Shown: one piece after another, positions 7,692 through 29,310 of the stretch
How the letters are laid out: each line of letters begins with the position of its first letter
Position numbering within the stretch: the stretch's first letter is position 1
From: Methanogenium sp. S4BF
GTDB taxonomy: Archaea > Halobacteriota > Methanomicrobia > Methanomicrobiales > Methanomicrobiaceae
Assembly (NCBI RefSeq): GCF_029633965.1
Contig: NZ_CP091277.1
Location: forward strand, 927,940 to 991,939
Reading direction: 5' to 3'
Length of the DNA: 64,000 bases
Program-made: the position numbers and the translations under genes
Notes under the pieces: model-generated
What the model saw: only the letters and a program-made list of their open reading frames with translations
What the model was told of the DNA's origin: nothing
The model's database searches: none

Positions 7692-8483
7692 TTATACCGC
7701 CGCTATTGATGCGTATCCAACAACCTGCGCCATATCGCCGGTTGTATCACCGCTTGTCATGTATTGTATTAATGCTCCGTGCGTAGCCCCCATGTGACGG
7801 GTCAGAGTTGCCATTACAGAAATTGGCCCGTATCCACATGCACTAACATTATATTCACGCAGCCGCTGATAAAAAGAACTGATGTCAAGGTCATAAAGTC
7901 CCTCAATTGCATAGGCATCATTCTTTTTTGCAACATCTGCCGGGACATAATGGGAAAAATCACTGGAAGCGACAATGCGTACATCTCCTGCAGAGAGAGC
8001 GGCAGAATTCCAGATGGTTTCTGCAAGCGAGAGGGAATGTGCATAATCCTGGGGGCCCATGAGCACCGGAACAACGTGTGCATCAGGGAAACGGTGTTTG
8101 ATAAACGGCATCTGAAGTTCCAGCGAGTTCTCCTCAGCCTGTATTGCCCTGTCAGAAAGAGGGACCCCAAGAGAACGGGCAAGTACCTTGTTGCAGGCAA
8201 CCGTTCCAAGCGGTGTATCCCAGTCCAATTCTGATGTATATGGTCCGATACCCCGGTGGCTTGGTGCGATTACCAGGAATGTACCGGCAAAATGCCTGTC
8301 GAAGCACGAATACGATGTCGCCATCACCTGCCCGGAATACGTATACCCCGCATGGGGAGACACAACACCAAAACAGTCAGGCAAACCGGTCGCTTTGGTA
8401 AAAAAAGAGGTTAATAAAGAAGAAAGAATGACTGGATCATCCGGATACCATAGTCCCGCAAGCGTGGGTTTTCTGACACCCAT
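7692..8483 (-). CDS. MEMO-like protein (AmmeMemoRadiSam system protein B family)
   Basis: A member of the MEMO family, whose fold resembles class III extradiol dioxygenases. Family motifs are PHAGYTYSG near residue 43, SSDFSHY near residue 175 and ACGYGPI near residue 220. In the usual EHS(I/L)E motif the histidine appears replaced: this protein reads [11 protein letters not shown]. In human MEMO1 that histidine, with the histidine of the first motif and the cysteine of the last, lines the metal/active site, so the change may alter function. A strong GGGAGG ribosome binding site precedes the ATG at 8483. The gene is fixed beside mvk in many archaea; its biochemical role is unproven. Confidence 0.9.
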
Positions 8484-14284: not shown

Positions 14285-14321
14285 TCAGTCAGCCTCACAT
14301 TGAGATATATACTCTTTAAAG

Positions 14322-15544: not shown

Positions 15545-16321
15545 TTATAGTGCGATAAGCATTGAATCCTTAGAGATAATTCCTCTGAGTTTCCCATCTT
15601 TTGTGACAGGAACGGAACTTATCCCTTTTGATACAATCAATTCAGCAAATTCAGCAACAGCCGCGCTTTCTTCAAGAGCGAGCGCCGGTGCAGTCATAAT
15701 ATCCCTTACGAAGAGATTTTTTATCTGGTTGTCCTGATGTTTTCCGTCCACCTTTGTCCGGAAATCACGCATTGCGCGTGCTACATCAGTTTCTGTGACA
15801 ATGCCGGCAATGGCGCCATCATCCATAACAACAAATTTGGTCACATCCTCATCAAGCATGCGCCTGCGCAGATGGATAACCCTCTCATCCAGGCCAATTA
15901 CGGCTGCATTCTGGATCAGATTTTCCGTTGTTGTGTCGGGTACCATCACTCTAAGAAGATCAGTTGCATCAACCTTCCCAACGAGTTTATGCTCACTGTC
16001 AAGCACAACTGCTAATTTATATTCCTGGAGAAGCGGAATTAGTATATCTGCCTCTTCATCCCCGTAGACTGATGTGAAATTTTCATCCGTTTGGTTTGCT
16101 ACATGAATCTGCGTAGGTGACAGAGTGGACGTCTTCTTGCTGCCAAGAGTTTCCGCAATAGCTGCCCGGGAAATTGTTCCCATTACTGAACCATTGTTTG
16201 TAACTATCAGAGGGTCTACACCATCTGCGAGCATTTTATCAAGCGCTTCGGTAATTGGAGCAGATTTTGCGATGGTAATCGACTTGGACATCACATCTTT
16301 GACAAATATTTCCTGACTCAT
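15545..16321 (-). CDS. protein with four CBS motifs (CBS gene 4 of cluster)
   Basis: 258 residues made almost wholly of two CBS pairs. Motifs begin with VKDVMSKSITIAK, then a middle pair including LVGKVDATDLLRV, then GIVTETDVARAMRD, and last VRDIMTAPALALEES with GIISKDSML. CBS pairs bind adenosyl ligands such as AMP, ATP or SAM and sense energy or methylation state; no catalytic domain is attached, so the partner is unknown. I use the ATG at 16321, preceded by AGGAAGTGG on the minus strand, rather than 16342. The upstream gap of 186 bp suggests its own promoter. A T-run terminator follows. Confidence 0.88.
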   Translation of the reverse strand: MSQEIFVKDVMSKSITIAKSAPITEALDKMLADGVDPLIVTNNGSVMGTISRAAIAETLGSKKTSTLSPTQIHVANQTDENFTSVYGDEEADILIPLLQEYKLAVVLDSEHKLVGKVDATDLLRVMVPDTTTENLIQNAAVIGLDERVIHLRRRMLDEDVTKFVVMDDGAIAGIVTETDVARAMRDFRTKVDGKHQDNQIKNLFVRDIMTAPALALEESAAVAEFAELIVSKGISSVPVTKDGKLRGIISKDSMLIAL

Positions 16322-16507
16322 TATGCCACTTCCTGGATACATATCCTATTCAGAATCCTGTTTATCTTTACAGGATAAAGGCTAATTTTCACTGACCTGT
16401 TCATCAGGCATCCTCCATGTACCACAGAGGAAAGATGCCGGAAAAGCATTACTGTCATTTTTCATGCTTTTTGTTTTAATCCTGATCATGTACTGAATGC
16501 AATACTA

Positions 16508-17452
16508 TTACAGCTCATTCTGAAGAGCCCGGACCAGATCATACTCTGTAATTATGCCAACCAGACGGGAATCTTCGATAACCGGCAATGCACCAACACC
16601 TTTTGCCAGCATATACCGTGCCGCATCACCTACATTCGCGGAAGGATTTGTCGTCATAAGATCACCCGTCATCAAAGAGCGGACGGAAATTTCGAGAACA
16701 TCATCCGTTGAACCGGTTGTCATCTTCTCAAAGATAGTACCATCCCCGACATATTTCATAATATCCATAGCCGTCACAATGCCGAAAAGGACATCATTAC
16801 TGACAACAGGCAGGCGTCTGAATTTGCGGCGTGTCATCTCTCTGGCTGCACTCCGAATGGTTTCGTCCGGCGTGATGACCTGCGGAGATGCCGTCATCAC
16901 ATCTTCAACAAGACTGACACTCTGGTATGAGGTGAGCACCTGCAGTACATCACGCTCAGTGATGATACCCATAAGCCGGTCATCACCATTGACGATAGGG
17001 AGGCCGCCGGTTTTGGTCATTACTATCCTGTCGACAACATCCGGAAGTTCATCACCGGGATGAACCGTTTCCAGTTTTGTTGACATAATTTCCTTTACCG
17101 GTTCATTGATTGCCGAGAGCAACTGTCCACGATGTTTAACCTTAACAAGGTTATACTTCGATCCTCCGCCCATAAGGTCAACCACATCACCTGCTGTCAC
17201 AAGACCATACAGCCTTCCTGTACCCGGGTCTGTTACCGGCAACCTGCGGAACCCCTTCGTACTCATGGCCTCGACAGCACGGATAATCTGCATCGTCTGG
17301 GGAACGGAATAAACGTCACTCGTTCCAATAGCCAGTATCTCAGAAGGATGCCCGGGCTTATTGGTTGAAAATTCTACAGGGCGTCCATTCATCTTTCCGG
17401 GATTTGTTCTTATTTCATCAGCTGGTTTCGTATTCTTCAGATTTCTGCGCAT
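16508..17452 (-). CDS. protein with four CBS motifs (CBS gene 3 of cluster)
   Basis: A short, polar N-terminus of about 50 residues precedes four CBS motifs in a 314-residue protein. Motif ends read GLVTAGDVVDLMG, GIITERDVLQVL, GIVTAMDIMKYVG and GIITEYDLVRALQ, each preceded by a DVM/SLM-type entry. These T/S-x-x-D sequences are the usual ribose-phosphate contact of CBS domains. The ATG at 17452 is preferred because CGGAG precedes it by about 7 bases; upstream in-frame codons would overlap the previous gene by more than 100 bp. As chosen, it overlaps that gene by 35 bp. Function unknown beyond ligand sensing. Confidence 0.88.
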   Translation of the reverse strand: MRRNLKNTKPADEIRTNPGKMNGRPVEFSTNKPGHPSEILAIGTSDVYSVPQTMQIIRAVEAMSTKGFRRLPVTDPGTGRLYGLVTAGDVVDLMGGGSKYNLVKVKHRGQLLSAINEPVKEIMSTKLETVHPGDELPDVVDRIVMTKTGGLPIVNGDDRLMGIITERDVLQVLTSYQSVSLVEDVMTASPQVITPDETIRSAAREMTRRKFRRLPVVSNDVLFGIVTAMDIMKYVGDGTIFEKMTTGSTDDVLEISVRSLMTGDLMTTNPSANVGDAARYMLAKGVGALPVIEDSRLVGIITEYDLVRALQNEL

Positions 17453-18218
17453 GTACGACTCCGGGTAATTCAAGAGCATTGAGAATGTCCTGACGCGATA
17501 CAATGCCTGCGATCTGTCCATCCGGTTCAATAACCGGAAGTCGGCTGACATCATACTGCATCATTGCCTGTGCTGCGTCCCCTATTGTATCATTCCTGAA
17601 TGTAATAATGGCAGGGGTAACCATTACATATTCAACCGGTGTTCGATGTTTTGCTTCAATTGAGCGGCGTATATGCCCGTGTGTGATCAGATCTTTTCTG
17701 GATATCATGCCCAGAATTCGATTCTCCTCTTCAACAGGAAGCGCGTCATACCCGCTCTCCGTGATCTTTGAATAGACCGCATGCAGTGGATCATCAGGAT
17801 GGCACGTAACCACCTGCCGGGTCATATAGTCATCCACCAGCCCTTCCGGATGCTGCCGGGACATGATTACCGGAAAGAGTGCAGCCAGCTGCACCGCTCC
17901 GATAAGCTCTCCTGCATGAGAGCAGACCGCCACACTGTCTGTCTGCGCATTTCTGATCTGCACAAGGGCATCTTCGATTGAATCCCCGGATTGCACAGAC
18001 GGTGCCTCACGGAGAAAGGTTTGAATCTCCAGATTTGATTTCGTCTCATTTACAAGGATCACGTCTGAAAGGTCAACAGACCCTGCCAGACTCCCGTCCC
18101 GGTTTCTGACAAAAATTTCTCTGAATGAATCCTCCCGAAGATGCTTTCTCGCCTTTGTGATCAGATCATCGGGATATAAGACAGGTATTTCGCGCATCAG
18201 GTCGGATACGACCATCAT
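17418..18218 (-). CDS. protein with four CBS motifs (CBS gene 2 of cluster)
   Basis: 266 residues with four CBS motifs, the first two more degenerate (GSVDLSDVILVN, GAVQLAALFPV) than the last two (GMISRKDLITHG, GIVSRQDILNALE). Entry motifs VSDLMREIPVL, VDDYMTRQVV and VEYVMVTPAII are clear. The start codon overlaps the stop of the preceding CBS gene in an ATGA arrangement, so the two are translationally coupled. No transporter, enzyme or DNA-binding domain is attached. Confidence 0.88.
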   Translation of the reverse strand: MMVVSDLMREIPVLYPDDLITKARKHLREDSFREIFVRNRDGSLAGSVDLSDVILVNETKSNLEIQTFLREAPSVQSGDSIEDALVQIRNAQTDSVAVCSHAGELIGAVQLAALFPVIMSRQHPEGLVDDYMTRQVVTCHPDDPLHAVYSKITESGYDALPVEEENRILGMISRKDLITHGHIRRSIEAKHRTPVEYVMVTPAIITFRNDTIGDAAQAMMQYDVSRLPVIEPDGQIAGIVSRQDILNALELPGVVHAQKSEEYETS

Positions 18219-18766
18219 AACGGTTCATCCTCTCCTCGACATTCGGGGCACCGCATGTTTCCGTCAACATTCACCAGATCATCTGACATGCAGCCGCATT
18301 CATCACAGATACCGTCCACAAGCTCATCAAACCGGTTTATTTCGATAAGATTGGACATAATCCCGTTCATTTCATTGGATACTGCCAGAATGTCGCGTAC
18401 CGTAACGATACCGACAACCCGTGAATCCTCAACAACCGGGATTCTCCGGACTTTATTCTTCATCATTATATTGGCAGCATCCTCTATGGTTTTATCAACG
18501 CCTATGGTAATCAGCGGTGTGCTCATCACTTCATGAACGAACACGTCACCCGGCACTCTGTTCTTGGCAACAACCTTGCAATTGATATCCTGTTCAGTAA
18601 CAATACCGACAGGGGCGTTTTTCTTCAGCACTATACAACTGCCAACTTCATCACGGCACATCTTCTCTGCGGCATGTGCAACCGTTGATCCCGAGTCTAT
18701 TGTTGTGGGACGAAACCGGATCACTTCTTTGAGAAGGATACGCGTTTCAAACCGCATTTGGTTCAT
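18215..18766 (-). CDS. CBS-pair protein with C-terminal zinc ribbon (CBS gene 1 of cluster)
   Basis: About 183 residues: a CBS pair (GIVTEQDINCKVVAK, then VHEVMSTPLITIG and GIVTVRDILAVSN) followed by a short zinc ribbon with two CxxC pairs, CDECG and CPECR, near the C-terminus. CBS-zinc ribbon fusions are common in archaea and often guessed to be regulators. The start is uncertain: GTG at 18781, ATG at 18766 and ATG at 18757 are all in frame; I use 18766. It is the first gene of the four-gene CBS cluster, divergent from the GTPase operon. Confidence 0.85.
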   Translation of the reverse strand: MNQMRFETRILLKEVIRFRPTTIDSGSTVAHAAEKMCRDEVGSCIVLKKNAPVGIVTEQDINCKVVAKNRVPGDVFVHEVMSTPLITIGVDKTIEDAANIMMKNKVRRIPVVEDSRVVGIVTVRDILAVSNEMNGIMSNLIEINRFDELVDGICDECGCMSDDLVNVDGNMRCPECRGEDEPL

Positions 18767-18781
18767 CCTGTTATCACTCAC

Positions 18782-18981: not shown

Positions 18982-19623
18982 ATGAATCTTTTTATACGGA
19001 CAAAAAAACGACTTTCAAGGTTTTTAAATGCATTTTTTAAGAAGCGTCAGTCACGAATAGGCATCTATGGACCGCCAAACGCAGGAAAAACCACACTGTC
19101 AAACCGAATTGTGCGGGACTGGACAGGAGATGCATTGGGCCCTGTCAGTGAGATACCTCATGAAACCAGACGTGCACGACGCAAAGAGGGCATAACCATC
19201 TCAAACCAGAATGGAAACACGGTAACCATTGATATTGTGGACACCCCGGGTGTAACAACAAAAATTGATTATCAGGAGTTCATTGAATACGGAATGGAAA
19301 AGGATGATGCAGTAAAGCGTGCCCGTGAAGCTACAGAGGGGGTTGCTGAAGCAATGCACTGGCTTCGTGAGGACATCGACGGCGTCATTTATATGCTTGA
19401 TTCAACACTCGACCCGTTTACCCAGGTAAATATCATGCTGGTCGGTATCATTGAAAGCAGAAATTTACCAGTAATCATTGTCGCAAATAAAATTGATCTG
19501 CCTGATGCATCTGCATCTGCCATCCGGAAGGCATTTCCCCAGCACCCTGTGATTCCGGTCTCCGGTCTTGAAGGAAACAACATGGAAGAGCTCTATGAAA
19601 AAATGCTCGAGTATTTCGGGTGA
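18982..19623 (+). CDS. arvA: Era-like small GTPase, ArvA/OapA type
   Basis: A 213-residue P-loop GTPase. G1 is GPPNAGKTT at residues 30-38, G3 is DTPG near residue 91, G4 is NKID near residue 168. A basic N-terminus of about 25 residues precedes the G domain. In Haloferax, a small GTPase with the same two neighbours drives extracellular vesicle formation (ArvA, earlier OapA); the match here rests on gene order and domain type, not on an alignment I could run. Strong ribosome binding site AGGAGGG. The next gene begins 6 bp after its stop. Confidence 0.82.
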   Translation: MNLFIRTKKRLSRFLNAFFKKRQSRIGIYGPPNAGKTTLSNRIVRDWTGDALGPVSEIPHETRRARRKEGITISNQNGNTVTIDIVDTPGVTTKIDYQEFIEYGMEKDDAVKRAREATEGVAEAMHWLREDIDGVIYMLDSTLDPFTQVNIMLVGIIESRNLPVIIVANKIDLPDASASAIRKAFPQHPVIPVSGLEGNNMEELYEKMLEYFG

Positions 19624-19629
19624 TTCCAG

Positions 19630-20001
19630 ATGATACAGGGAGTTCAGATAGACCTGATTTCAGCAGACAGGCTTGAAAAAATGACAACCATGGAAAAGAT
19701 TCGTCTAATCCTTGATGATGTCATGGAAGGGAACATCGTTGTTCTGGAAAAAGGGCTTACCCCGGATGAACAGAGCAGGCTAATTGAAATTACCATGCTT
19801 GAAATTACTCCTGACGGATTTTCAGGAATTGAGATGGAAACCTATGCAGCAAAGGATTCTGGTTCTTCAGGAGGACTGTTCGGAAAACTTCTGGGAAAGA
19901 AGGGTCCCGGAACACGCATGACCGTTATCGGCCCTGCCAACCAGATGAAAACAATAAAGAAGGACAAAGACCTCATAAGCGCCTGGGTATCATCACGGTG
20001 A
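19630..20001 (+). CDS. arvB: DUF2073-type protein, ArvB/OapB-like
   Basis: 123 residues. The sequence fits the DUF2073 family: a predicted alpha-beta domain with MIQGVQIDLISADRLEKM at the start and NIVVLEKGLTPDEQSRLIE in the middle, followed by a glycine-rich linker and a basic segment. No enzyme motif is visible. It is always found with the upstream GTPase and downstream zinc-ribbon protein in euryarchaea as far as I know, and in Haloferax is part of the vesiculation operon. Function by itself unknown. Confidence 0.78.
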   Translation: MIQGVQIDLISADRLEKMTTMEKIRLILDDVMEGNIVVLEKGLTPDEQSRLIEITMLEITPDGFSGIEMETYAAKDSGSSGGLFGKLLGKKGPGTRMTVIGPANQMKTIKKDKDLISAWVSSR

Positions 20002-20006
20002 GTGCG

Positions 20007-20435
20007 ATGGCACATAAGTGCACACAATGCGGACGGGAATTTCAGGACGGATCAAATGTTATCCTCAAGGGATGCCCCAGCTGTGGCGGAAAAAAATTTC
20101 TCTTCATCCGCCCACAGGATATGCACAAGGATGTGCTTGAGGAAAAGAGCATAAAACAGATCGCAGAAGAGACAAAGGAACAGTTTCTGGAGATAAAGGA
20201 AGAGAAACAGAGACCGGAGACTGCCAGCACCTCCAAACATGTGGAGATGTATGACAGAATCGAAAGCATCACGGTCATCAATCCCGGCTCCTATGAACTC
20301 AATCTGGAGAAGCTCGCGGAAAGTGATGAACTGGTTATCAGAATGGGGAACGATGACCGGTATATGGTTGATATTCATTCGATGGGGAAAAGTTCTAAAT
20401 CGAAACCGAAGAAAAAACCGGATAAAAAACGGTAA
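20007..20435 (+). CDS. arvC: zinc-ribbon protein, ArvC/OapC-like
   Basis: 142 residues with an N-terminal zinc ribbon (cysteines at about 5, 8, 23 and 26: CTQCG and CPSCG), a charged middle segment rich in E and K, and a basic lysine-rich tail (KSKPKKKPDKKR). I start at the ATG at 20007, which has GGTGAG just upstream; GTG at 19998 overlapping the previous stop is also possible. Third gene of the GTPase operon. A short T-run follows the stop codon as a likely terminator. Confidence 0.78.
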   Translation: MAHKCTQCGREFQDGSNVILKGCPSCGGKKFLFIRPQDMHKDVLEEKSIKQIAEETKEQFLEIKEEKQRPETASTSKHVEMYDRIESITVINPGSYELNLEKLAESDELVIRMGNDDRYMVDIHSMGKSSKSKPKKKPDKKR

Positions 20436-20741
20436 TATCTCTTTTTACAATATCTGATATTCTTCAACTCCTCCCGGAAAATATACTTCAGAGCCTTGCA
20501 CATTCAGGTTCATCGTCCCGGAATCTCCCATCCGGATGCAGAGGAGATTTACCATCCGGTTCTCACAAGGATTGATGCCCGCACCATGCTATGCGAGTGA
20601 ATATGCAAGGAAACACCGTCGGGAAAGGATATTATCACCCATATATATTCGGATAGATCACTTCAGGAAGTAAATCCGGTCTAATGCATGCAGGTCTCAG
20701 GTTATATTACCGTTACCAACCTATGTCTGGCCACATAAAAA
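20436..20741. other. convergent intergenic region, no gene seen
   Basis: 306 bp between the 3' ends of the GTPase operon and the pilin operon. T-runs near 20441 (plus) and near 20731-20741 (minus, TTTTAATTTTTATG) probably end both transcripts. An isolated CCATATATATTC at about 20639-20650 resembles a TATA box but no coding frame follows it. I see no repeat or tRNA. Confidence 0.5.
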
Positions 20742-23327
20742 TTAAAACGGATAATCAGCAGGATCGCTGATATATTCGTTCATATTTTTGAAGGTGACGG
20801 CTGTACCTCCGCTTGTTACCCGGAACCCATCCTGAGCGATGACCAGTCCCTCAAATAAACTTCCTTCAAACACCACTTCCCCATTCGGGGCAAATAACAC
20901 ACCGGTGACAATCCTGTTTCCCATGCCTGTTAGTCTGATATCGCCTGATTTTGCAACGATTATTACATCTTCAGCCGTACTTGGAGCAGGCCAGTCATTA
21001 ACGGCAGTATAACTATCGGCACATATCCTTATATTGTCTGCAAGGGCGCCCCCGGATACATATCCACGGGAAGAGTACCATGCATCACTCCTTGCAGAAG
21101 GCATCTCAACAGCAGGAATCGTAAATCCTGGCACTGATTTCAATTTTGAACATTTGTCCAGAATCGAACGGTCCATATGCGGAGGGTGACTAAACTTCCC
21201 GGTATAGAAGATATTTGCATCAGTGAGATCCGGTGTCCAGCCAAGCCCCAGTTCCCCATCGACATACATCGTCCCATGAATTACCGGATCCTTTAGGTAG
21301 CAGTTACCATTGACATAGACATCGCCGTAAATGTCTCTCGCTCCAATTCCGAGATACAGGTCACCATTCACATAGATAGAGCCCGGAGATACCTCCGATC
21401 CTAATGCTGCACTCCCCCCATCCAGTGAGATTGTTCCATCCACATTTATATTTGAAACAGCAAGAGAGGTTCCACCATTAAGGTCAGCCGTATTCAGTTC
21501 ACTACCGGTGATATGAATCGTCGCTCCCGGTCCAGTGACAGCGTCTCCGGCAAATGAGAGTTCCTGCCCGTATACAAAGACATTCTCATTGACAACATAC
21601 TGCGCAAATGCGCTCACGCCCTCAGTTGCATTAATGTATGCCGTACGCTCAAGGGTATCCGTACCATATCCATTCGTCACCGTGAGGTTCACATCATACG
21701 TCCCGGCATCAGTATAGGTGTGCAATGGATTCAGATCCGAGGATGTTGTACCGTCACCAAAGCTCCACAGATACGTGAAGGGTGTGGTCCCCGTCACGGT
21801 TGAGGTGAACTGCACAGCAAGCGGGGCATCCCCTGTCACCGGCGTCCCAGTGAAGGACACCACAGGTGCATCCCCGGAGGGTGGTGAGCATGCATCTGCC
21901 AAAGTTGCAACCTCATCTGCTGTGAGCGCCGTTCCATAGAGATACAGCTCATCCATCATTCCTTTGTAGAAGAAATTGGCCCAGTCATATTTCGTGACCA
22001 TCTGCCTGCCAATACTGACCGGTTCCGTATTTTCCTGAAGCGGTGTCCGCGTGACGCTGAAGGTCCCTTCTTCCTGACCGTCGACATATACGGTTCCCGT
22101 TCCGCCGTCAACCACGACCGCAATATGGAACCACTCGTCATAAGAAAGTGGCAGGCCAGTGACATCCGATATGGCCCCCTCTGCATTCACAGCGTCAAGT
22201 TCACCGTTTTCCTCGAATCGAAGAGCGTCATTATCAATCTTGAGAAATACTTCATAATTATTTGAGTATTTGCTCCGCTGGTAATCATCGTAGCCTTTAC
22301 CGATGATCTGGGTATAGTTCCGATAGGAATCCGGGGCCGAAACATATTCCGGCACTTCAGGTTTGAACCACCCGGCAAACGTGAATGTGTCATTGAAGCT
22401 GAGTGTATCATCGTCCGGGACGCTCACCCAGGTGGTCGTGCCGTCGAAATAGAGACCAGTGCCGCAGGCACCTGCCCGCCGGTCCGCCGGACCGCCCTCG
22501 ATGATCCCGTCGTTGCCGTTGCCGGACGAATCAACCGCAGTGCTTCCGGACGCTTCATCGAACCGCCACCACGCAACAGGGAAAAGGGGTTCTATAGCAA
22601 ATACCTGGATATATCCGGTTTTAACAGCCGACCCCGAACCGTCCGGGTTGTATGCAGTCAGCTGAATCGTGTACACGCCGGGGGAGGTATAGATATGCAC
22701 CGGATGCTGCGCCGATGATGAACCTCCGTCACCAAAACTCCACTGCCATGCATAAGGGTCATTGGACGATGCATCCGTGAATTGGACTGTCAGCGGAGCC
22801 ATGCCACCCGTCACATTCGCAGAGAATGCCGCCACCGGCGTTAGACCGGTCGGGGGAATCACGGTCGCGCTCGTCCCGACATCCCAAAGAAGGATGCCAC
22901 CCCCATTTGGATCGTAATATATTATTTGAACGGATTCGGGCGGTTCATTACCAGTAAGATCAAGAGTTAATGAATCGCCAGAACCCCACTGATCCCAATC
23001 GGAACCACCCATAGTGGAGGTGAAATTTGCTGTCACATCCCTTCCGTCAACAAGAATCCGTGTTTCATTCCTCTGAAGAGTGTCCCCTGCACGAAGATCG
23101 AGAACATACGTATCATCATCTTCAATAATACGGGCATCTATAGAAACAGCGGGCACCACAAAAGCAGATGGCGCAGAAAGGAGCATGACAAGAACCACTC
23201 CAAATGCAGCGACAAATACGCCAATGAGAATAATCGAGCCGATCATCTCTGATGATGCGTCATCATGGTTTTTTACAGGAAAATGAGACGACTCTTCCTG
23301 TAGATTATTACAGCTATATCTTCCCAT
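20742..23327 (-). CDS. type IV pilin-like surface protein with PKD, LamG, PKD and bactofilin-like domains
   Basis: 861 residues, predicted to be anchored at or exported through the cell surface. Layout: charged N-terminus (1-27), pilin-type hydrophobic segment SEMIGSIILIGVFV (26-50) as in archaeal type IV pilin N-terminal domains, pilin-like beta region (51-160), PKD domain (about 162-243, WSFGDG at 196), LamG/concanavalin A-like domain (about 249-480, starting AWWRFDEASGS), second PKD (about 487-568, WSFGDG at 521), and a tail (575-861) with repeated short beta motifs such as GSIYVNGDLYLG and GDVYVNGNCYL, reminiscent of polymer-forming bactofilin repeats. PKD and LamG suggest binding to glycans or other cells. 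Last gene of a three-pilin operon; GGGGGGAG precedes the start. Specific role unknown. Confidence 0.85.
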   Translation of the reverse strand: MGRYSCNNLQEESSHFPVKNHDDASSEMIGSIILIGVFVAAFGVVLVMLLSAPSAFVVPAVSIDARIIEDDDTYVLDLRAGDTLQRNETRILVDGRDVTANFTSTMGGSDWDQWGSGDSLTLDLTGNEPPESVQIIYYDPNGGGILLWDVGTSATVIPPTGLTPVAAFSANVTGGMAPLTVQFTDASSNDPYAWQWSFGDGGSSSAQHPVHIYTSPGVYTIQLTAYNPDGSGSAVKTGYIQVFAIEPLFPVAWWRFDEASGSTAVDSSGNGNDGIIEGGPADRRAGACGTGLYFDGTTTWVSVPDDDTLSFNDTFTFAGWFKPEVPEYVSAPDSYRNYTQIIGKGYDDYQRSKYSNNYEVFLKIDNDALRFEENGELDAVNAEGAISDVTGLPLSYDEWFHIAVVVDGGTGTVYVDGQEEGTFSVTRTPLQENTEPVSIGRQMVTKYDWANFFYKGMMDELYLYGTALTADEVATLADACSPPSGDAPVVSFTGTPVTGDAPLAVQFTSTVTGTTPFTYLWSFGDGTTSSDLNPLHTYTDAGTYDVNLTVTNGYGTDTLERTAYINATEGVSAFAQYVVNENVFVYGQELSFAGDAVTGPGATIHITGSELNTADLNGGTSLAVSNINVDGTISLDGGSAALGSEVSPGSIYVNGDLYLGIGARDIYGDVYVNGNCYLKDPVIHGTMYVDGELGLGWTPDLTDANIFYTGKFSHPPHMDRSILDKCSKLKSVPGFTIPAVEMPSARSDAWYSSRGYVSGGALADNIRICADSYTAVNDWPAPSTAEDVIIVAKSGDIRLTGMGNRIVTGVLFAPNGEVVFEGSLFEGLVIAQDGFRVTSGGTAVTFKNMNEYISDPADYPF

Positions 23328-23342
23328 CTTCTCCCCCCTGCG

Positions 23343-24416
23343 TCAGATACCATCTGCTTTTGCTAAAATGACTGAATTCTCGTTGTCAGTCGGACTCCAT
23401 GCATTTATGACAAACATCCCGGAATCCGTTGGCCGGACATTCAGCAGGGTTATAACAGTCGCACCTCCGGACCGGGGATCAAGTGCACCATTTATATACA
23501 GCTCATACGTCGGATCAAGCCTGAACGCAAGATTAGACTCCAGATTATCATATTCCGGGATCCAGGCACTTTTAATTTCAACCTCATCTCTTGCACCTCC
23601 CGGAATCAGTGCGCCATTAATCCAGACATTGACTCTCTCAAATCTGAGGCTGAAAAATGTATTCCCTACACCTGTGATGCTTATTCGATTCCCTGCAGCC
23701 TCATCTTTTCCGGTACGAATGACAAGTGTATCTCCTGTGTTCAGGCTCCGGGCACCGGCTTCTCCTTGAATAGTAACGGTTGAGTTCGGAGAAACAACCG
23801 TGAAATTAAAATATCTGCCCTCCACAACAGCAGTCTGTTCTAACGACGCAAAGGCGGCAATGATCTGGGAATCCCTAAGAACAGATTCAGCAACAATCTC
23901 ACCGGCCACCTCAGGACCGGGAGTCGCCGGGACGCCACCCGGAGCAAGGGTAGGCAAAGGTGCGGACGAGACATCAGCAAGGTCTGCGGCCACACCCGCA
24001 TCGTCCACATATGCCGGGCGGAAGATGCCTGAGTTATCCAGGTAGGTGATGCGAATATGATCTTCGAGCGGGGTGACAGTCCCCGTGGCAGTATACGTAA
24101 GGGTCTCCCCCGTCGACCAGGGCCATGCACCGCCGGACGTAAAGTTCAGGGCGGTCGCAGGAACAGCGGCTCCATCGACGTACACCCCGAAATCTCCCGG
24201 ATTCAGGGAGTCCCCGCCATTGTGCTGAAAAAGGACAAGTGTCACATTATTCGAGATGAGCACATCTACCGCCGGCAACTCTTCTGCCATCGGCTGAGAG
24301 AAGAGAAAGACCCCGACGAGCGTAATGGCTACCACGGTCAGCCCGATAAGGAGGACCACACCGATGGTCTCGGATACCGCATCTTCATTCGTCATCTGTG
24401 TCCGCATGCCATTCAT
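23343..24416 (-). CDS. type IV pilin-like protein
   Basis: 357 residues. After a short charged leader (MNGMRTQMTNEDAVSE) comes the class III signal/pilin helix SETIGVVLLIGLTVVAITL, the site expected to be cut by the archaeal prepilin peptidase. The first 150 residues follow the archaeal pilin N-terminal domain (GDSLNPGDFGVYVDG and related beta strands); the remainder is beta-rich without a domain I recognise. I use the ATG at 24416, with GGGAGAG just upstream, rather than the GTG at 24431 that overlaps the preceding stop. Middle gene of the pilin operon. Confidence 0.82.
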   Translation of the reverse strand: MNGMRTQMTNEDAVSETIGVVLLIGLTVVAITLVGVFLFSQPMAEELPAVDVLISNNVTLVLFQHNGGDSLNPGDFGVYVDGAAVPATALNFTSGGAWPWSTGETLTYTATGTVTPLEDHIRITYLDNSGIFRPAYVDDAGVAADLADVSSAPLPTLAPGGVPATPGPEVAGEIVAESVLRDSQIIAAFASLEQTAVVEGRYFNFTVVSPNSTVTIQGEAGARSLNTGDTLVIRTGKDEAAGNRISITGVGNTFFSLRFERVNVWINGALIPGGARDEVEIKSAWIPEYDNLESNLAFRLDPTYELYINGALDPRSGGATVITLLNVRPTDSGMFVINAWSPTDNENSVILAKADGI

Positions 24417-24427
24417 TGTACTCTCCC

Positions 24428-25345
24428 TCACTCAATCCCTGATGCAACCGTCTGGAGCGTTGCCGTGTAGTTCGCCCGGATGAAATCGGCATAGACACCG
24501 ATGCTTGTATTTCCGACAACCTCAAGAGATACCGTATCTGTGTCTGTGGTCAGCGTGTACCAGGATGCAGGAATCCCATAGCGTGCCAGTGCGTCCCGGA
24601 AGGACCCTTCCCACATCCGGCGGGTGTTCACGTCGTCTGATGCCACCACAATGCTAACATTGGTAATTGCGTCATAGGACACTTCTGAAATGCCATTCGA
24701 ATTCAGATTTGTGTCAATTCGCACCGGTCCGGTGCCGCTTATCAGCTGTTCACCATTCAGCCGGATTATCGTTAAATCGACTTTGGCAGTATACCCTCCG
24801 CCAGTCCCGTATCGTGCGATGGTCAGGGGCGGCATGACCCGGACAGTAGAACCGGAATCCTGTTCAAGGAAAACGCCACCCAGCTGATAATAGTAATTCT
24901 GGTCTATCCAGTAGTTATTATCTGACTGAAATTCGAGTGAACCCATCTCATAGTCAGCAATGGTTACCACTCCCCCGGCATTCGAACCGGCAGTGACTGT
25001 AATGGTTTCAGAACGTTGGTTTATTCCGACAGAGCCCCCGGAGGGGATCGGTGTCAGCAACACAAAATCACCGATCCCTCCCTGACTGTAACCCCCGCCG
25101 GTTCCCAGATCAAGGGTTGTACTAAGGGTTGTTCCCTCCCGTTCATTCACCCAGAGGGAGTCCAGCGAAATTTTATAGGCCGCAAATGTGTCTTTGATGT
25201 CATTCATATGGCTTATTTCATTATCCCTTCCCTGAACAGGGACCGTATATGTCTGATACATCACAAGAAATACTACCAGAAGGCCTATCAGAAGAATAAA
25301 TCCGATCACTTCTGAAAGCCCTTCATCACTCTGAAACGACTTCAT
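24428..25345 (-). CDS. type IV pilin-like protein, first of cluster
   Basis: 305 residues. N-terminus MKSFQSDEGLSEVIGFILLI, continuing to a hydrophobic helix ending near residue 26, has the archaeal prepilin pattern with a glutamate shortly before the helix. The rest is a secreted, serine/threonine- and glycine-rich beta domain ending in a segment with several predicted strands (TDTDTVSLEVVGNTSIGVYA). No cysteines or catalytic motif stand out. There is no clear ribosome binding site; a GGTATTTATTG TATA-like element lies about 33 bp upstream on the minus strand, so the transcript may be nearly leaderless. Confidence 0.82.
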   Translation of the reverse strand: MKSFQSDEGLSEVIGFILLIGLLVVFLVMYQTYTVPVQGRDNEISHMNDIKDTFAAYKISLDSLWVNEREGTTLSTTLDLGTGGGYSQGGIGDFVLLTPIPSGGSVGINQRSETITVTAGSNAGGVVTIADYEMGSLEFQSDNNYWIDQNYYYQLGGVFLEQDSGSTVRVMPPLTIARYGTGGGYTAKVDLTIIRLNGEQLISGTGPVRIDTNLNSNGISEVSYDAITNVSIVVASDDVNTRRMWEGSFRDALARYGIPASWYTLTTDTDTVSLEVVGNTSIGVYADFIRANYTATLQTVASGIE

Positions 25346-25462: not shown

Positions 25463-27001
25463 ATGCAGCAACAGGAAGGAGAAACCCAGGAGCGAATACA
25501 CTGGGCAGATGTCTGTGCAGCACAGGTTGATCAGGAAAAAACCCACTATATTGCCACCGGGATTACGCCATCCGGACCGATCCATCTCGGCAATATGCGG
25601 GAAGTTTTGACCGGAGATCTTGTGCACAAAGCAATGGTCGAACGAGGACTTTCAGCAGAACTCATTTATATCGCTGATGATTTTGATCCACTCCGCAAGG
25701 TGTATCCATTTCTCCCGGATTCATATGCAAAATATATCGGAATGCCCATATGCGACATTCCCTGCCCCTGCGGCAAACATGCAAATTATGCAGAACATTT
25801 TCTTGAACCGTTTCTGCAGGCAATCGACGAGATGGATGTACACCCAACCATCGTTCGTTCAAGTGAACTCTACCGGTCAGGCAGATATACTGATGAAATC
25901 GCAACCGTGCTGAACCGTTCAGATGACATAAAAGAGATTCTTGAACGGGTTTCAGGCCGATCACTTCCGGATTCATGGGTTCCCTATTATCCGATATGCA
26001 GCAAATGCGGTACAATTGCAAATGCAGAGATTCTCTCCCATGATCCGGAGACGACATCCGTTGCATACCGTTGCCCCTGTGGACATGAAGGAGTATCGGA
26101 TTATTCAAAAGGTGAAGGGAAACTGGTCTGGCGTGTTGACTGGCCAATGCGGTGGTACAACATGGGCATCACCGTAGAACCATTTGGAAAAGACCATGCC
26201 GCAGCAGGAGGCTCATACGACACCGGTAAAGAGATCGTGGAGAAGATATTCGGCGGAGTCGCCCCGTTCCCGGTTCAGTATGAATGGATCAGCCTGAAAG
26301 GAAAGGGAGCAATGGCTTCATCAACCGGTGTTGCCATATCCATCAATGAGATGCTCTCCATCGTTCCGCCTGACGTCCTGCGATATATGATTGTCCGGAC
26401 CCGGCCCGAGCGGGCAATCAACTTTGACCCGGGTATGGGACTGTTATCACTTATTGATGAGTATGCGCGCCTTGCAGAGGACAAGAACAGCCGTGAATAT
26501 GAACTATCGGCAATATCGTCAATTGCAACTGACATCCCCTTCCGCCATATGGTAACAGTTGTGCAGATTGCACGGGACAAGGAAACCATTTTTGATATCC
26601 TTGCCCGGAGCGGATATAATGTTGAAAACAAAGAGGCAGTGCTTGCACGTGCTGAACGTGCACGAATATGGATTGAAAAATACGCACCAGAAATGGTGAA
26701 ATTCACGGTCCAGACCGAATTGCCTTCTGCGGTATTTGCATTTACGGAAGATGACCGCTACGGACTGAGTGCCCTTCTCGCACAATATATTGCAATGGAT
26801 GAATGGAAGGCTGAGACCATCCACAATGCAGTATACAAAGTGGGGGAGGATACCGGGGTGAACGCAAAGAAAATTTTCACTGCCCTCTACCTCGCAATTC
26901 TCGGAAAAGAACGGGGCCCCAGACTTGGATGGTTCCTTGAAGCCCTGGGACAGGAATTTGTGACCCAGAGAATTACTGATGCGGTGAATGCCGGTGCTTA
27001 G
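25463..27001 (+). CDS. lysS: class I lysyl-tRNA synthetase
   Basis: Charges tRNA-Lys. The 512-residue protein is the class I form found in most euryarchaea, not the class II enzyme of bacteria and eukaryotes. HIGH motif HLGN at residues 41-44 (ITPSGPIHLGN); the KMSKS counterpart is KGKGAMASSTG near residue 280. Two zinc-type clusters appear in the middle: CPCGKH, and CSKCG with CPCGHEG. The ending overlaps the next gene by 14 bp. Confidence 0.96.
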   Translation: MQQQEGETQERIHWADVCAAQVDQEKTHYIATGITPSGPIHLGNMREVLTGDLVHKAMVERGLSAELIYIADDFDPLRKVYPFLPDSYAKYIGMPICDIPCPCGKHANYAEHFLEPFLQAIDEMDVHPTIVRSSELYRSGRYTDEIATVLNRSDDIKEILERVSGRSLPDSWVPYYPICSKCGTIANAEILSHDPETTSVAYRCPCGHEGVSDYSKGEGKLVWRVDWPMRWYNMGITVEPFGKDHAAAGGSYDTGKEIVEKIFGGVAPFPVQYEWISLKGKGAMASSTGVAISINEMLSIVPPDVLRYMIVRTRPERAINFDPGMGLLSLIDEYARLAEDKNSREYELSAISSIATDIPFRHMVTVVQIARDKETIFDILARSGYNVENKEAVLARAERARIWIEKYAPEMVKFTVQTELPSAVFAFTEDDRYGLSALLAQYIAMDEWKAETIHNAVYKVGEDTGVNAKKIFTALYLAILGKERGPRLGWFLEALGQEFVTQRITDAVNAGA

Positions 27002-27956
27002 TACAGCCTGCAGACTCTGCCACGAAGGCGCAAAAATGGTTCTGTTTGTTACCGGAAGGTGCAACAGGACCTGCTGGTACTGCCCGATTTCATCTGAGAA
27101 GAAAGGGAAAGACACCGCCTATGCAAATGACCGGGTCATTCTCACCGATGACGACATCCTTGAGGAAGCCTGGTCAATGGGAGCACTGGGTGCCGGGATA
27201 ACCGGAGGGGAACCCCTTCTGGTACCTGAACGGGTAAAGCACTACTGTACTCTTCTGAAAAATGAATATGGAGAGGCATTCAATATCCACCTGTACACCG
27301 GCATTGCTCCGAATGAAGACATTCTTATTCTTCTCAGCGACTGCGTGGATGAAATACGGTTTCATCTCCCGGAAGAAATCTGGGAAACCTATCAGGATTC
27401 CCCATTTCCTGCGGCAATTCGCACCGCAAAAGAACTCGGATTTGAAGTCACCATTGAAGTGCCGTCATTACCGGGACTGCATCATCTTATCCCTGCCGTT
27501 GACACCGTTGACTGGTTCAATATTAATGAACTGGAATGGAGTGAAACAAACGCAGACGCAATGAGAGGAAAGAGCCACTCACTTGAAGACTGCTACCATA
27601 ACGCCGTCGGAGGTGCAGGGATTTGGGCGGCAGAGATTCTCAAAAATCCAAAAGTGCACTGGTGTTCATCAGGTTTCAAAGACTCGGTGCAGCTGAGAAA
27701 AAGACTGATTCGCACGGCAGAAATTACTGCACGTGAATTTGAAGAGGTCACCGATGACGGCACTCTGATGTACGGCGTCTGGGAATATGCCGGGCAGCCT
27801 CATGATATCGAAGAGGGAATGTGGCAGGAGAGAGACGGCAATATCGAGACTGCCTGGTGGATCCTTGCAGAACACCCGGAAGACTTTCCCGGAACAAAGT
27901 ATATCATTGAACGATATCCCGGATGGGGGATAATAGTGGAGGTAATCCCGCTTTGA
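26988..27956 (+). CDS. radical SAM protein, function unknown
   Basis: 322 residues. The radical SAM cluster motif is CNRTCWYCP near residue 26, preceded by CRLCHEGAKMVLF. GITGGEPLL (about residue 68) is the GGE motif that holds the SAM amino group. A C-terminal CSSG may contribute a further ligand. It belongs to an uncharacterised archaeal group; substrate is not evident. It overlaps the lysS end by 14 bp and is followed by uppS, overlapping the chosen TTG start by 4 bp, so all three are probably one operon. Confidence 0.85.
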   Translation: MPVLSTACRLCHEGAKMVLFVTGRCNRTCWYCPISSEKKGKDTAYANDRVILTDDDILEEAWSMGALGAGITGGEPLLVPERVKHYCTLLKNEYGEAFNIHLYTGIAPNEDILILLSDCVDEIRFHLPEEIWETYQDSPFPAAIRTAKELGFEVTIEVPSLPGLHHLIPAVDTVDWFNINELEWSETNADAMRGKSHSLEDCYHNAVGGAGIWAAEILKNPKVHWCSSGFKDSVQLRKRLIRTAEITAREFEEVTDDGTLMYGVWEYAGQPHDIEEGMWQERDGNIETAWWILAEHPEDFPGTKYIIERYPGWGIIVEVIPL

Positions 27957-28723
27957 AACTCAGGAATATTCTTAATCAATGCTACGAGCGTCATCTGATG
28001 AAACGCATAACGAACGTTCCGGATCATATTGCAATCATCCAGGACGGAAACCGCCGTTATGCAAAGATACAGGGGAAAAATACCTCTTTCGGACACCGGA
28101 AAGGTGCGCAGACCTCAGAGGATCTGCTTGAATGGGCACGGGAGATTGGCGTCCGGAATGTGACATTATACTCATTTTCCACGGAAAATTTTAACCGGTC
28201 AGATGAAGAGCTGAATGAATTATTCTCACTTTTTATTGAAAAATTCAGATCCGTAAAAACGGATCCACGGATTCATAAAAATAAAATCCGCCTGCAGGTA
28301 GTAGGAGACCGCAGCCTCATTCCGGAAAATCTTCTTGCAACCATCGTTGAAGCAGAGGAAGCAACCAAAGACTATACACAATTCCACCTCAATATTGCCC
28401 TGGCATATGGGGGCAGAAATGAAATCGTGCTTGCATCACGGGAAATTATCAAAGATCTGAGAGCAAACAGAATAACACCCGATATGATCACCAAAGATCT
28501 CTTTGACGAAAAGATCCGCGGAGACCTGCATCTCCCCCCCGTTGATCTGATCATCCGTACCGGAAACGAGAAACGGACATCCAATTTTCTTCCGTGGTTT
28601 GCCAACGGATACGAATCAGCGGTCTACTTCTGTGCACCATACTGGCCCCTCTTCAGAAAAATTGATCTGCTCAGGGGAATCCGCGTGTATGACGAACGGG
28701 TTAAGAGCGGCTATCTCCCATAA
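27953..28723 (+). CDS. uppS: cis-prenyltransferase, catalytic subunit (polyprenyl diphosphate synthase)
   Basis: Builds the long cis-polyprenyl diphosphate that becomes the glycan carrier lipid. The catalytic DGNRRYA motif is at residues 31-37 and YSFSTENFNR near residue 78; LIIRTGNEKRTSNFLPW binds the allylic substrate. I start at TTG 27953 (256 residues): GGAGGT lies 8 bases upstream and the codon overlaps the previous stop. An ATG at 27923 would extend into the upstream gene without a binding site. The C-terminus ends RVKSGYLP and lacks a clear RxG motif, which the neighbouring paralogue has instead. Confidence 0.9.
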   Translation: MKLRNILNQCYERHLMKRITNVPDHIAIIQDGNRRYAKIQGKNTSFGHRKGAQTSEDLLEWAREIGVRNVTLYSFSTENFNRSDEELNELFSLFIEKFRSVKTDPRIHKNKIRLQVVGDRSLIPENLLATIVEAEEATKDYTQFHLNIALAYGGRNEIVLASREIIKDLRANRITPDMITKDLFDEKIRGDLHLPPVDLIIRTGNEKRTSNFLPWFANGYESAVYFCAPYWPLFRKIDLLRGIRVYDERVKSGYLP

Positions 28724-29310
28724 CGTCTTTTGCGGAGCTGATAATCCCGTATTGCCCGGAAAAAATCAATTTTTCTAAACGTCTGCCAGTTTACATCAGT
28801 GAAAAACAGTTCAGAATATACTGACTGCCAGATCATAAAATCCATCAGATGGTTATCCCCGGTTTTAATGACAAAATCCGGTTCATAATGAAATGTCAGG
28901 TGAGATTCGAGCATTTTTTCGTCAATCTCATCCGGTGCGATTCCTTTTTCTGCAATTTCACGAACAGAACGGACAATCTCTTCCCTGCCACTCATGCCCA
29001 CTGCAATAATGGTATCCGGAATCTGGCTCCCGTCATGGAGCACCGATACCCCTCCGGGTGAATACAGGGTTACACGGACAGGACCAAAGGAATCTTTAAA
29101 CCGGGTTATTTCTGAGATCAGGGGATCAGGATTATCGGTATCAATATGGAAAATGAGGGATTTCAACCCACATTCTCCACTCCAGTTGATAACCTGGATG
29201 ATTTTTTCCGGTGCACGTCGCGCTTCATCCTCGGAGAGCATGATACAGATATGACCGGGAACATCCACACATCCCCGGATCAGAACCCTCTCATAGATAT
29301 ACCGAATCAT
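28711..29310 (-). CDS. degenerate cis-prenyltransferase paralogue, likely partner subunit
   Basis: 199 residues, convergent with uppS and overlapping it by 13 bp. It aligns along its length with that enzyme (VPGHICIMLSEDEARRAPEK against VPDHIAIIQDGNRRYAK), but the catalytic DGNRR is replaced by SEDEARR. It keeps the C-terminal fold element RKIDFFRAIRDYQLRKRRYGR-like ending, including RYG, an RxG motif one residue before the end. This is the pattern of eukaryotic Nogo-B receptor, a non-catalytic cis-prenyltransferase subunit supplying RxG. Heteromeric archaeal cis-prenyltransferases have been reported in Methanosarcina. Subunit role is inferred. Confidence 0.75.
   Translation of the reverse strand: MIRYIYERVLIRGCVDVPGHICIMLSEDEARRAPEKIIQVINWSGECGLKSLIFHIDTDNPDPLISEITRFKDSFGPVRVTLYSPGGVSVLHDGSQIPDTIIAVGMSGREEIVRSVREIAEKGIAPDEIDEKMLESHLTFHYEPDFVIKTGDNHLMDFMIWQSVYSELFFTDVNWQTFRKIDFFRAIRDYQLRKRRYGR

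Follow-up and report, generated by a model that had tools for sequence, protein, structure and literature searches.

In bacteria, the use of modular tip pilins is well established (PMC8179133, PMC9934059, PMC12075869). In Streptococcus sanguinis, three minor pilins make a tip complex that bears lectin and vWA modules (PMC9934059). Modular pilins come in 264 architectures in InterPro, and the LamG-like PF13385 is among the frequent ones (PMC8179133). The tips of the Kil and Tad systems are described as adaptable (PMC12075869), and PilV shufflons alternate between C-terminal adhesin segments (PMC9045228). For archaea, a census of type IV pili (T4P) treats minor pilins and, in the passages covered, does not mention modular or exchangeable heads (PMC4858521). 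No account of exchangeable modular pilus tips in archaea was found in the literature searched. Here, we analyse a three-gene pilin operon (g1, g2, g3) of Methanogenium sp. S4BF, a member of the Methanomicrobiales, on a DNA stretch of 64,000 nucleotides (contig NZ_CP091277.1, positions 927,940 to 991,939; hereafter the window). The operon probably encodes three minor type IV pilins which form the tip complex of a T4P-like filament and carry exchangeable adhesive heads.

The three open reading frames (ORFs) lie on the minus strand where the original prediction had placed them. They carry an archaeal class III signal (type IV pilin) and encode proteins of 305, about 357 and 861 amino acids (aa). 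The N-terminal pattern said to be common to them is present as SEVIGFILLIG (g1), SETIGVVLLIG (g2) and SEMIGSIILIG (g3). The first pilin, g1 (24428..25345), has the signal SDEG followed by LSEVIGFILLIG, a 60-residue N-terminal helix and a beta head. Its assignment as a pilin is based on DUF7289 and the helix; Pilin_N is found in 9 of 17 g1 relatives. The second pilin, g2 (23343..24416), has the signal EDA followed by VSETIGVVLLIG. Its longest ORF (23343-24431, 362 aa) begins with GTG at 24431; the true start is very probably the ATG at 24416, which stands behind a GAGGGAG ribosome site. Hence, the 4-nt overlap of g1 and g2 is probably not real. The large pilin g3 (20742..23327) follows g2 at a spacing of 15 nt, has the signal DDA followed by SSEMIGSIILIG and exceeds its neighbours in length by a factor of 2.4-2.8. 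The Pfam cut-off for Pilin_N is exceeded by g2 (51.7 bits) and g3 (30.1 bits). All three proteins therefore combine a class III signal and a hydrophobic helix with Pilin_N or a related profile. Euryarchaeal clade 2 T4P minor pilins, as far as the covered passages of the census describe them, are likewise archaeal, 250-550 aa long and duplication-prone (PMC4858521); g1 belongs to DUF7289.

Behind its signal, g3 is a string of modules, all on the minus strand. Pfam places Pilin_N at residues 24-96 (23040..23258), a first PKD domain at residues 169-234 (22626..22823), a LamG/concanavalin A-like lectin domain (Laminin_G_3) at residues 295-474 (21906..22445) and a second PKD domain at residues 487-565 (21633..21869), in agreement with the two PKD domains and the LamG domain originally proposed. 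The second PKD domain directly precedes the C-terminal tail, residues 567-861 (20745..21629, 295 aa), which we call head A. As in modular tip pilins, several minor pilins are encoded together and some bear extra modules. The locus resembles S. sanguinis PilA-PilB-PilC, in which two of three minor pilins carry bulky adhesive modules on a pilin base and PilC has a concanavalin A-like lectin module, like g3 (PMC9934059, PMC8179133). In contrast to PilABC, the bases are archaeal, the modules stand in series and end in a beta-solenoid, the operon lies apart from the machine, and heads are exchanged at a fixed locus. The genome also has giant PKD-repeat frames of 1,000 to 4,400 aa in several other places, e.g., at C1 350-356, 629-631, 1219-1221 and 2492-2501 kb.

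Head A was compared with Pfam profiles together with the tails of 36 relatives, which are 46-76% identical to the window copy and strongly conserved in the core. DUF7305 matches all 36 tails (best E 1.3e-7) and pAdhesive_15, the "Putative Ice-binding-like adhesive domain", matches 33 of them (best E 3.4e-7). The window tail alone reaches E 2.5e-4 and 21.4 bits against DUF7305, which is under the curated cut-off of 27 bits. An AlphaFold2 model from a 39-tail alignment (mean pLDDT 94.1, pTM 0.90) is all-beta, with short strands and one long irregular segment, so the tail of short beta strands in the original prediction holds. The best fold matches in the PDB are beta-helical proteins, headed by the C-terminal domains of Caldicellulosiruptor tapirins (4wa0, E 1.4e-3, probability 0.99; 6n2b, E 6.8e-3, probability 0.97; 6n2c is a further tapirin structure). 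Tapirins are cellulose adhesins of beta-helix shape (review, PMC7142884). After the top tapirins, the list contains an ice-binding protein and, at rank 16, the pilin ComZ with a beta-solenoid. Head A is thus modelled as a beta-solenoid of the DUF7305/ice-binding-like adhesive class with a putative role in adhesion. Its identification as a bactofilin was ruled out by profile and fold searches: the Bactofilin profile (PF04519) did not match the window tail, and no bactofilin structure is among the 50 best PDB fold matches.

Other candidates for the tail were set aside. FwdC-type solenoids show weak sequence likeness and the same kind of fold, which we take as analogy. Matches to WRAP-T were disregarded, as no stretch passes alone, and a viral fold library gave no match. 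In the tails of five loci (L062, L074, L075, L076, L077), positions ~82-128 of the solenoid give a double match, which would fit a duplicated set of coils.

The operon is a dedicated minor-pilin set that is syntenic across Methanomicrobiales. In 38 of 150 relatives, frames with a length of 37 to 1772 aa end in the tail. Class-wide, it is matched in 53 of 232 genomes, nearly always at full length, and all of these genomes belong to the one taxonomic order. We compared 36 tail-bearing loci of relatives and the window with 20 tail-less loci that contain g1. In the 36 loci and the window, g1 leads a run of same-strand genes, with at least one pilin and then the tail pilin behind it; in two of them, g1 is broken or short. 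The gene order in other Methanomicrobiales is therefore kept, and because it is kept across the order, the layout is not due to chance. When a locus is assigned to the same chromosomal site if at least one flank gene lies within the fetched stretch, 35 of 36 tail loci and 17 of 20 tail-less loci share one site, bordered by LysS, radical SAM and UppS genes on one side and by Era-like, DUF2073, Zn-ribbon and CBS genes on the other. In Methanogenium cariaci (L061 / L110), all three pilin frames are in pieces, which is either an assembly error or decay.

In a sample of 393 genomes from the phylum, a single full-length archaeal copy of the tail occurs beyond the order. It belongs to a family f8 genome, which is taken to be Methanohalophilus by an identical in-frame TAG. 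The family of Methanohalophilus reads TAG as pyrrolysine. In Methanohalophilus euhalobius (L085:7263-8879), a pilin-PKD-tail gene has the in-frame TAG at 8037, and the tail of genome G502 is likewise interrupted by TAG.

While the tail is constant, the stretch before it ranges from 123 to 1479 aa in the relatives. Among the 36 tail pilins, Pilin_N is present in 35 and PKD in 32, next to LamG (9), PA14 (6), GLEYA (6) and other surface modules. LamG, PA14, GLEYA and PKD are classic stalk and adhesive modules. In the tail-less genomes, g1 is found as well and the layout is kept in most of the 20 loci, with Pilin_N in 16 of 16 third pilins; what differs is the end of the large pilin. Most of these loci have a domain of ~175 aa (head B), which has no Pfam family, three have a domain of ~118 aa (head C), and a Gly-rich end and a right-handed beta-helix end occur in single cases. 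In the window, g2 itself has a divergent head B as its C-terminal domain (23364..23879, minus strand), with 42 bits and an hhalign probability of 97.8 (E 1.1e-12). Thus, g1 is constant and the large pilin varies in its PKD stalk, its lectin modules and its terminal head, of which at least three types are exchanged.

The tree of g1 and the DNA breakpoints document this exchange. On the g1 tree, head A versus other heads requires 13 changes, at least 12 of which are forced by well-supported branches. Shuffled labels require 13.8, so the head type is about as scattered as random. In two close pairs, the DNA similarity spans g1, g2 and the g3 base, ends 40-50 nt before the tail (L064, 14261 versus a tail start at 14302; L054, 10349 versus 10396) and returns downstream of g3. 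In both pairs, the break falls at a boundary like the second PKD/head junction of g3. In a third pair (G029/G034), a similarity of 94.9% ends inside g2. The Myxococcus Kil tips and TadEFG are comparable in that minor-pilin tip sets with variable C-terminal domains are interchanged on a shared filament machine (PMC12075869). Kil, however, has several complete tip clusters per genome, whereas here distal domains are replaced between strains at one locus.

A remnant of such an exchange is preserved in the window. An open stretch of 47 codons (20448..20588, minus strand; stop codon 20445-20447), detected by scanning all six frames, lies 154 nt downstream of the stop codon of g3 and is the relic of a head B 3' coding end. 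Its translation aligns to the final 39 positions of head B with 24.3 bits (E 2.2e-5 among 22,871 fragments), and the best of 20,000 shuffles reached 8.7 bits. Most simply, head B was the former end of g3 and was later replaced by head A. The six-frame scan of 57 sequences detected no intact silent head cassettes; only the window relic and fragments in L061 were seen. A shufflon was rejected, as neither silent cassettes nor a recombinase were seen beside the operon and the flanks are housekeeping genes. The PilV shufflon of IncI plasmids is similar in that a constant N-terminal pilin part is combined with alternative C-terminal adhesin segments that set specificity (PMC9045228). It differs from this locus, where neither recombinase nor inverted cassettes were seen beside the operon and the exchange is between lineages and left one relic.

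The same head is found in bacteria. Among 84,980 species genomes that were scanned, the tail occurs in Neobacillus, Fusibacter, Clostridia, Pelotomaculum, Saliterribacillus and Desulfuromonadota (27-54% identity), and archaeal and bacterial copies are up to ~50% identical over ~290 aa. In these bacteria, the tail is joined to a pilin N-terminus of the bacterial type (GFTLxE or the like). In Neobacillus, Saliterribacillus, Fusibacter and a Clostridiales contig (L113), the tail pilin belongs to T4P loci, where genes which we named from their N-termini lie beside it: PilB, PilT, PilC, PilA, PilD or PilMNO, and small minor pilins. In the tail tree, the bacterial copies fall in several places, and at least three changes of the bacterial label are forced by well-supported branches; long branches make the exact placement of these copies unsure. 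Because of the several placements, the head probably crossed between the domains more than once and sits on the recipient's kind of pilin. The cross-domain head, with each copy on its own pilin type, suggests a common ligand.

Machinery for pilus assembly is encoded in the genome that holds the window, which consists of one contig of 2.51 Mb. A T4P ATPase and two TadC-like genes are located at C1:236135-241218, and the one Peptidase_A24 gene lies ~5 kb beyond this locus. The genome further encodes a stand-alone PilA-like major pilin of 133 aa and an archaellum locus besides a second archaellum-like ATPase/FlaJ locus. The latter pair (L152:7086-13227, C1:1765-1771 kb) is accompanied by one pilin-like gene and two KaiC-like genes. 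Strict co-occurrence of the operon with T4P TadC was discarded as evidence, because TadC homologues occur in 219 of 232 genomes of the order (only distant ones in genus g21) and the presence of a nearly universal gene says little.

The context genes of the conserved site lie outside the system. On one side, a class I lysyl-tRNA synthetase-like gene (25463..27001, plus strand) adjoins the operon, and Era-like GTPase, DUF2073-like and Zn-ribbon genes (18982..20435, plus strand) form the other side. Two facing genes for UppS-like cis-prenyltransferases (266 and 199 aa; 27923-29310) are both beside the operon in most relatives. A run of CBS-domain genes (15545-18781; 265, 348, 266 and 188 aa) is near the site, also in many relatives.

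Considering these data, we favour a tip complex as the probable function of the operon. Prepilin peptidase would cut g1, g2 and g3 after DEG, EDA and DDA, respectively, and the N-terminal helices would enter the filament, presumably assembled by the T4P machine of the genome itself. The three minor pilins would assemble together at the filament tip and display the adhesive head, a position proposed by analogy to the tail pilins in bacterial T4P operons. The constant pilin would be g1, to which g2 and g3 add further heads. In g3, the PKD-LamG-PKD section would serve as stalk and lectin between the pilin base and the conserved 295-aa beta-solenoid. The ligand is likely a carbohydrate, judging from the likeness to tapirin, LamG and PA14. 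Recombination at a fixed site would rebuild the large pilin by changing the length of the stalk and swapping lectin modules and terminal heads (A, B, C or rarer ones), while g1 and the pilin bases stay; the binding of the tip would change and the filament would not. A further idea, which we put forward as tentative, is that the fixed tip locus of Methanomicrobiales is a head-swapping site at which PKD-coding repeats may act as homologous anchors for recombination with incoming DNA, with heads that include those which crossed between bacteria and archaea.

Several observations weigh against parts of this tip-complex reading. Tapirins take ranks 1-3, 6 and 9 of the Foldseek matches of head A in the PDB, with E 1.4e-3 to 0.7 and TM-scores of 0.34-0.46, and no Foldseek match of any kind reaches E 1e-3. 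Sequence searches with the tail profiles did not recover a tapirin chain even when E values up to 10 were allowed. As the match is modest in TM-score and is not accompanied by a sequence match, it suggests a likeness of fold and does not prove kinship; the archaeal head, unlike tapirins, is also fused to a pilin. The fold search of g1 in the PDB returned noise only, with helix-only matches at the top probabilities, so g1 is at most a putative nucleator. As for the assembling ATPase, the window genome has no machine gene near the operon, and it encodes a second, different pilin-like gene set with a DUF7289 member (C1:2394.7-2398.6 kb; L175:4720-8633). As to when the exchange took place, the relic did not turn up in three congeners, nor in a fragmented fourth.

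The absence of linked assembly genes would also be expected if the proteins were membrane-anchored surface lectins, in which the class III signal and the helix would be a mere membrane anchor and the proteins would stand in the S-layer, outside filaments. PKD-rich surface proteins are plentiful in the genome, and g3 reaches up to 1771 aa in relatives, which is hard to fit in the body of a filament. A tip, however, tolerates large modules (PMC9934059), three ordered pilins exceed the needs of an anchor, and the same head sits on a minor pilin within T4P operons of Bacillota. We therefore regard this alternative as unlikely, yet as the strongest of those considered. Much less probable is a secretion-like pseudopilus, in which the trio would be a short piston, as GspI-J-K, and a substrate would be exported or docked via head A. 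The minor-pilin trio does follow the GspIJK layout, and TcpB/CofB tips dock secreted proteins (PMC8179133), but the housekeeping flanks include no conserved dedicated substrate gene and the LamG, PA14 and GLEYA modules indicate binding. An equally slight chance is given to the possibility that viruses with the tip as their receptor are the main force behind head exchange, which would serve escape from them first and adhesion second. Pili often serve as receptors for viruses, and the random-like exchange on the g1 tree is what a rapidly selected surface epitope would show. The identity and the conserved core of the tails fit ligand binding better than free escape, and no head-linked virus turned up, no search having been aimed at such viruses. 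The weakest explanation, a bactofilin-like polymerising tail that forms a sheath, is very improbable: the tail is a beta-solenoid like bactofilin and the Bactofilin profile gives E ~0.1 (best 0.095) with 2 of 36 tails, but DUF7305 and pAdhesive_15 perform far better and in nearly all members. From the dedicated system of the original prediction, bactofilin and the sheath, for which nothing was found, are thus dropped; what remains is the syntenic pilin set, whose small pilins probably serve to display a large modular protein.

A syntenic locus that is kept across the order lets one ask what archaeal pili bind and how their specificity evolves. Head B is a conserved domain outside Pfam families. 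Methanomicrobiales are important hydrogen- and formate-consuming syntrophs. Hence, a swappable contact device could bear on the choice of partner. If the locus is indeed a head-swapping site, strains would change their binding partner, be it a surface, a polysaccharide or a syntrophic bacterium, in a single step.

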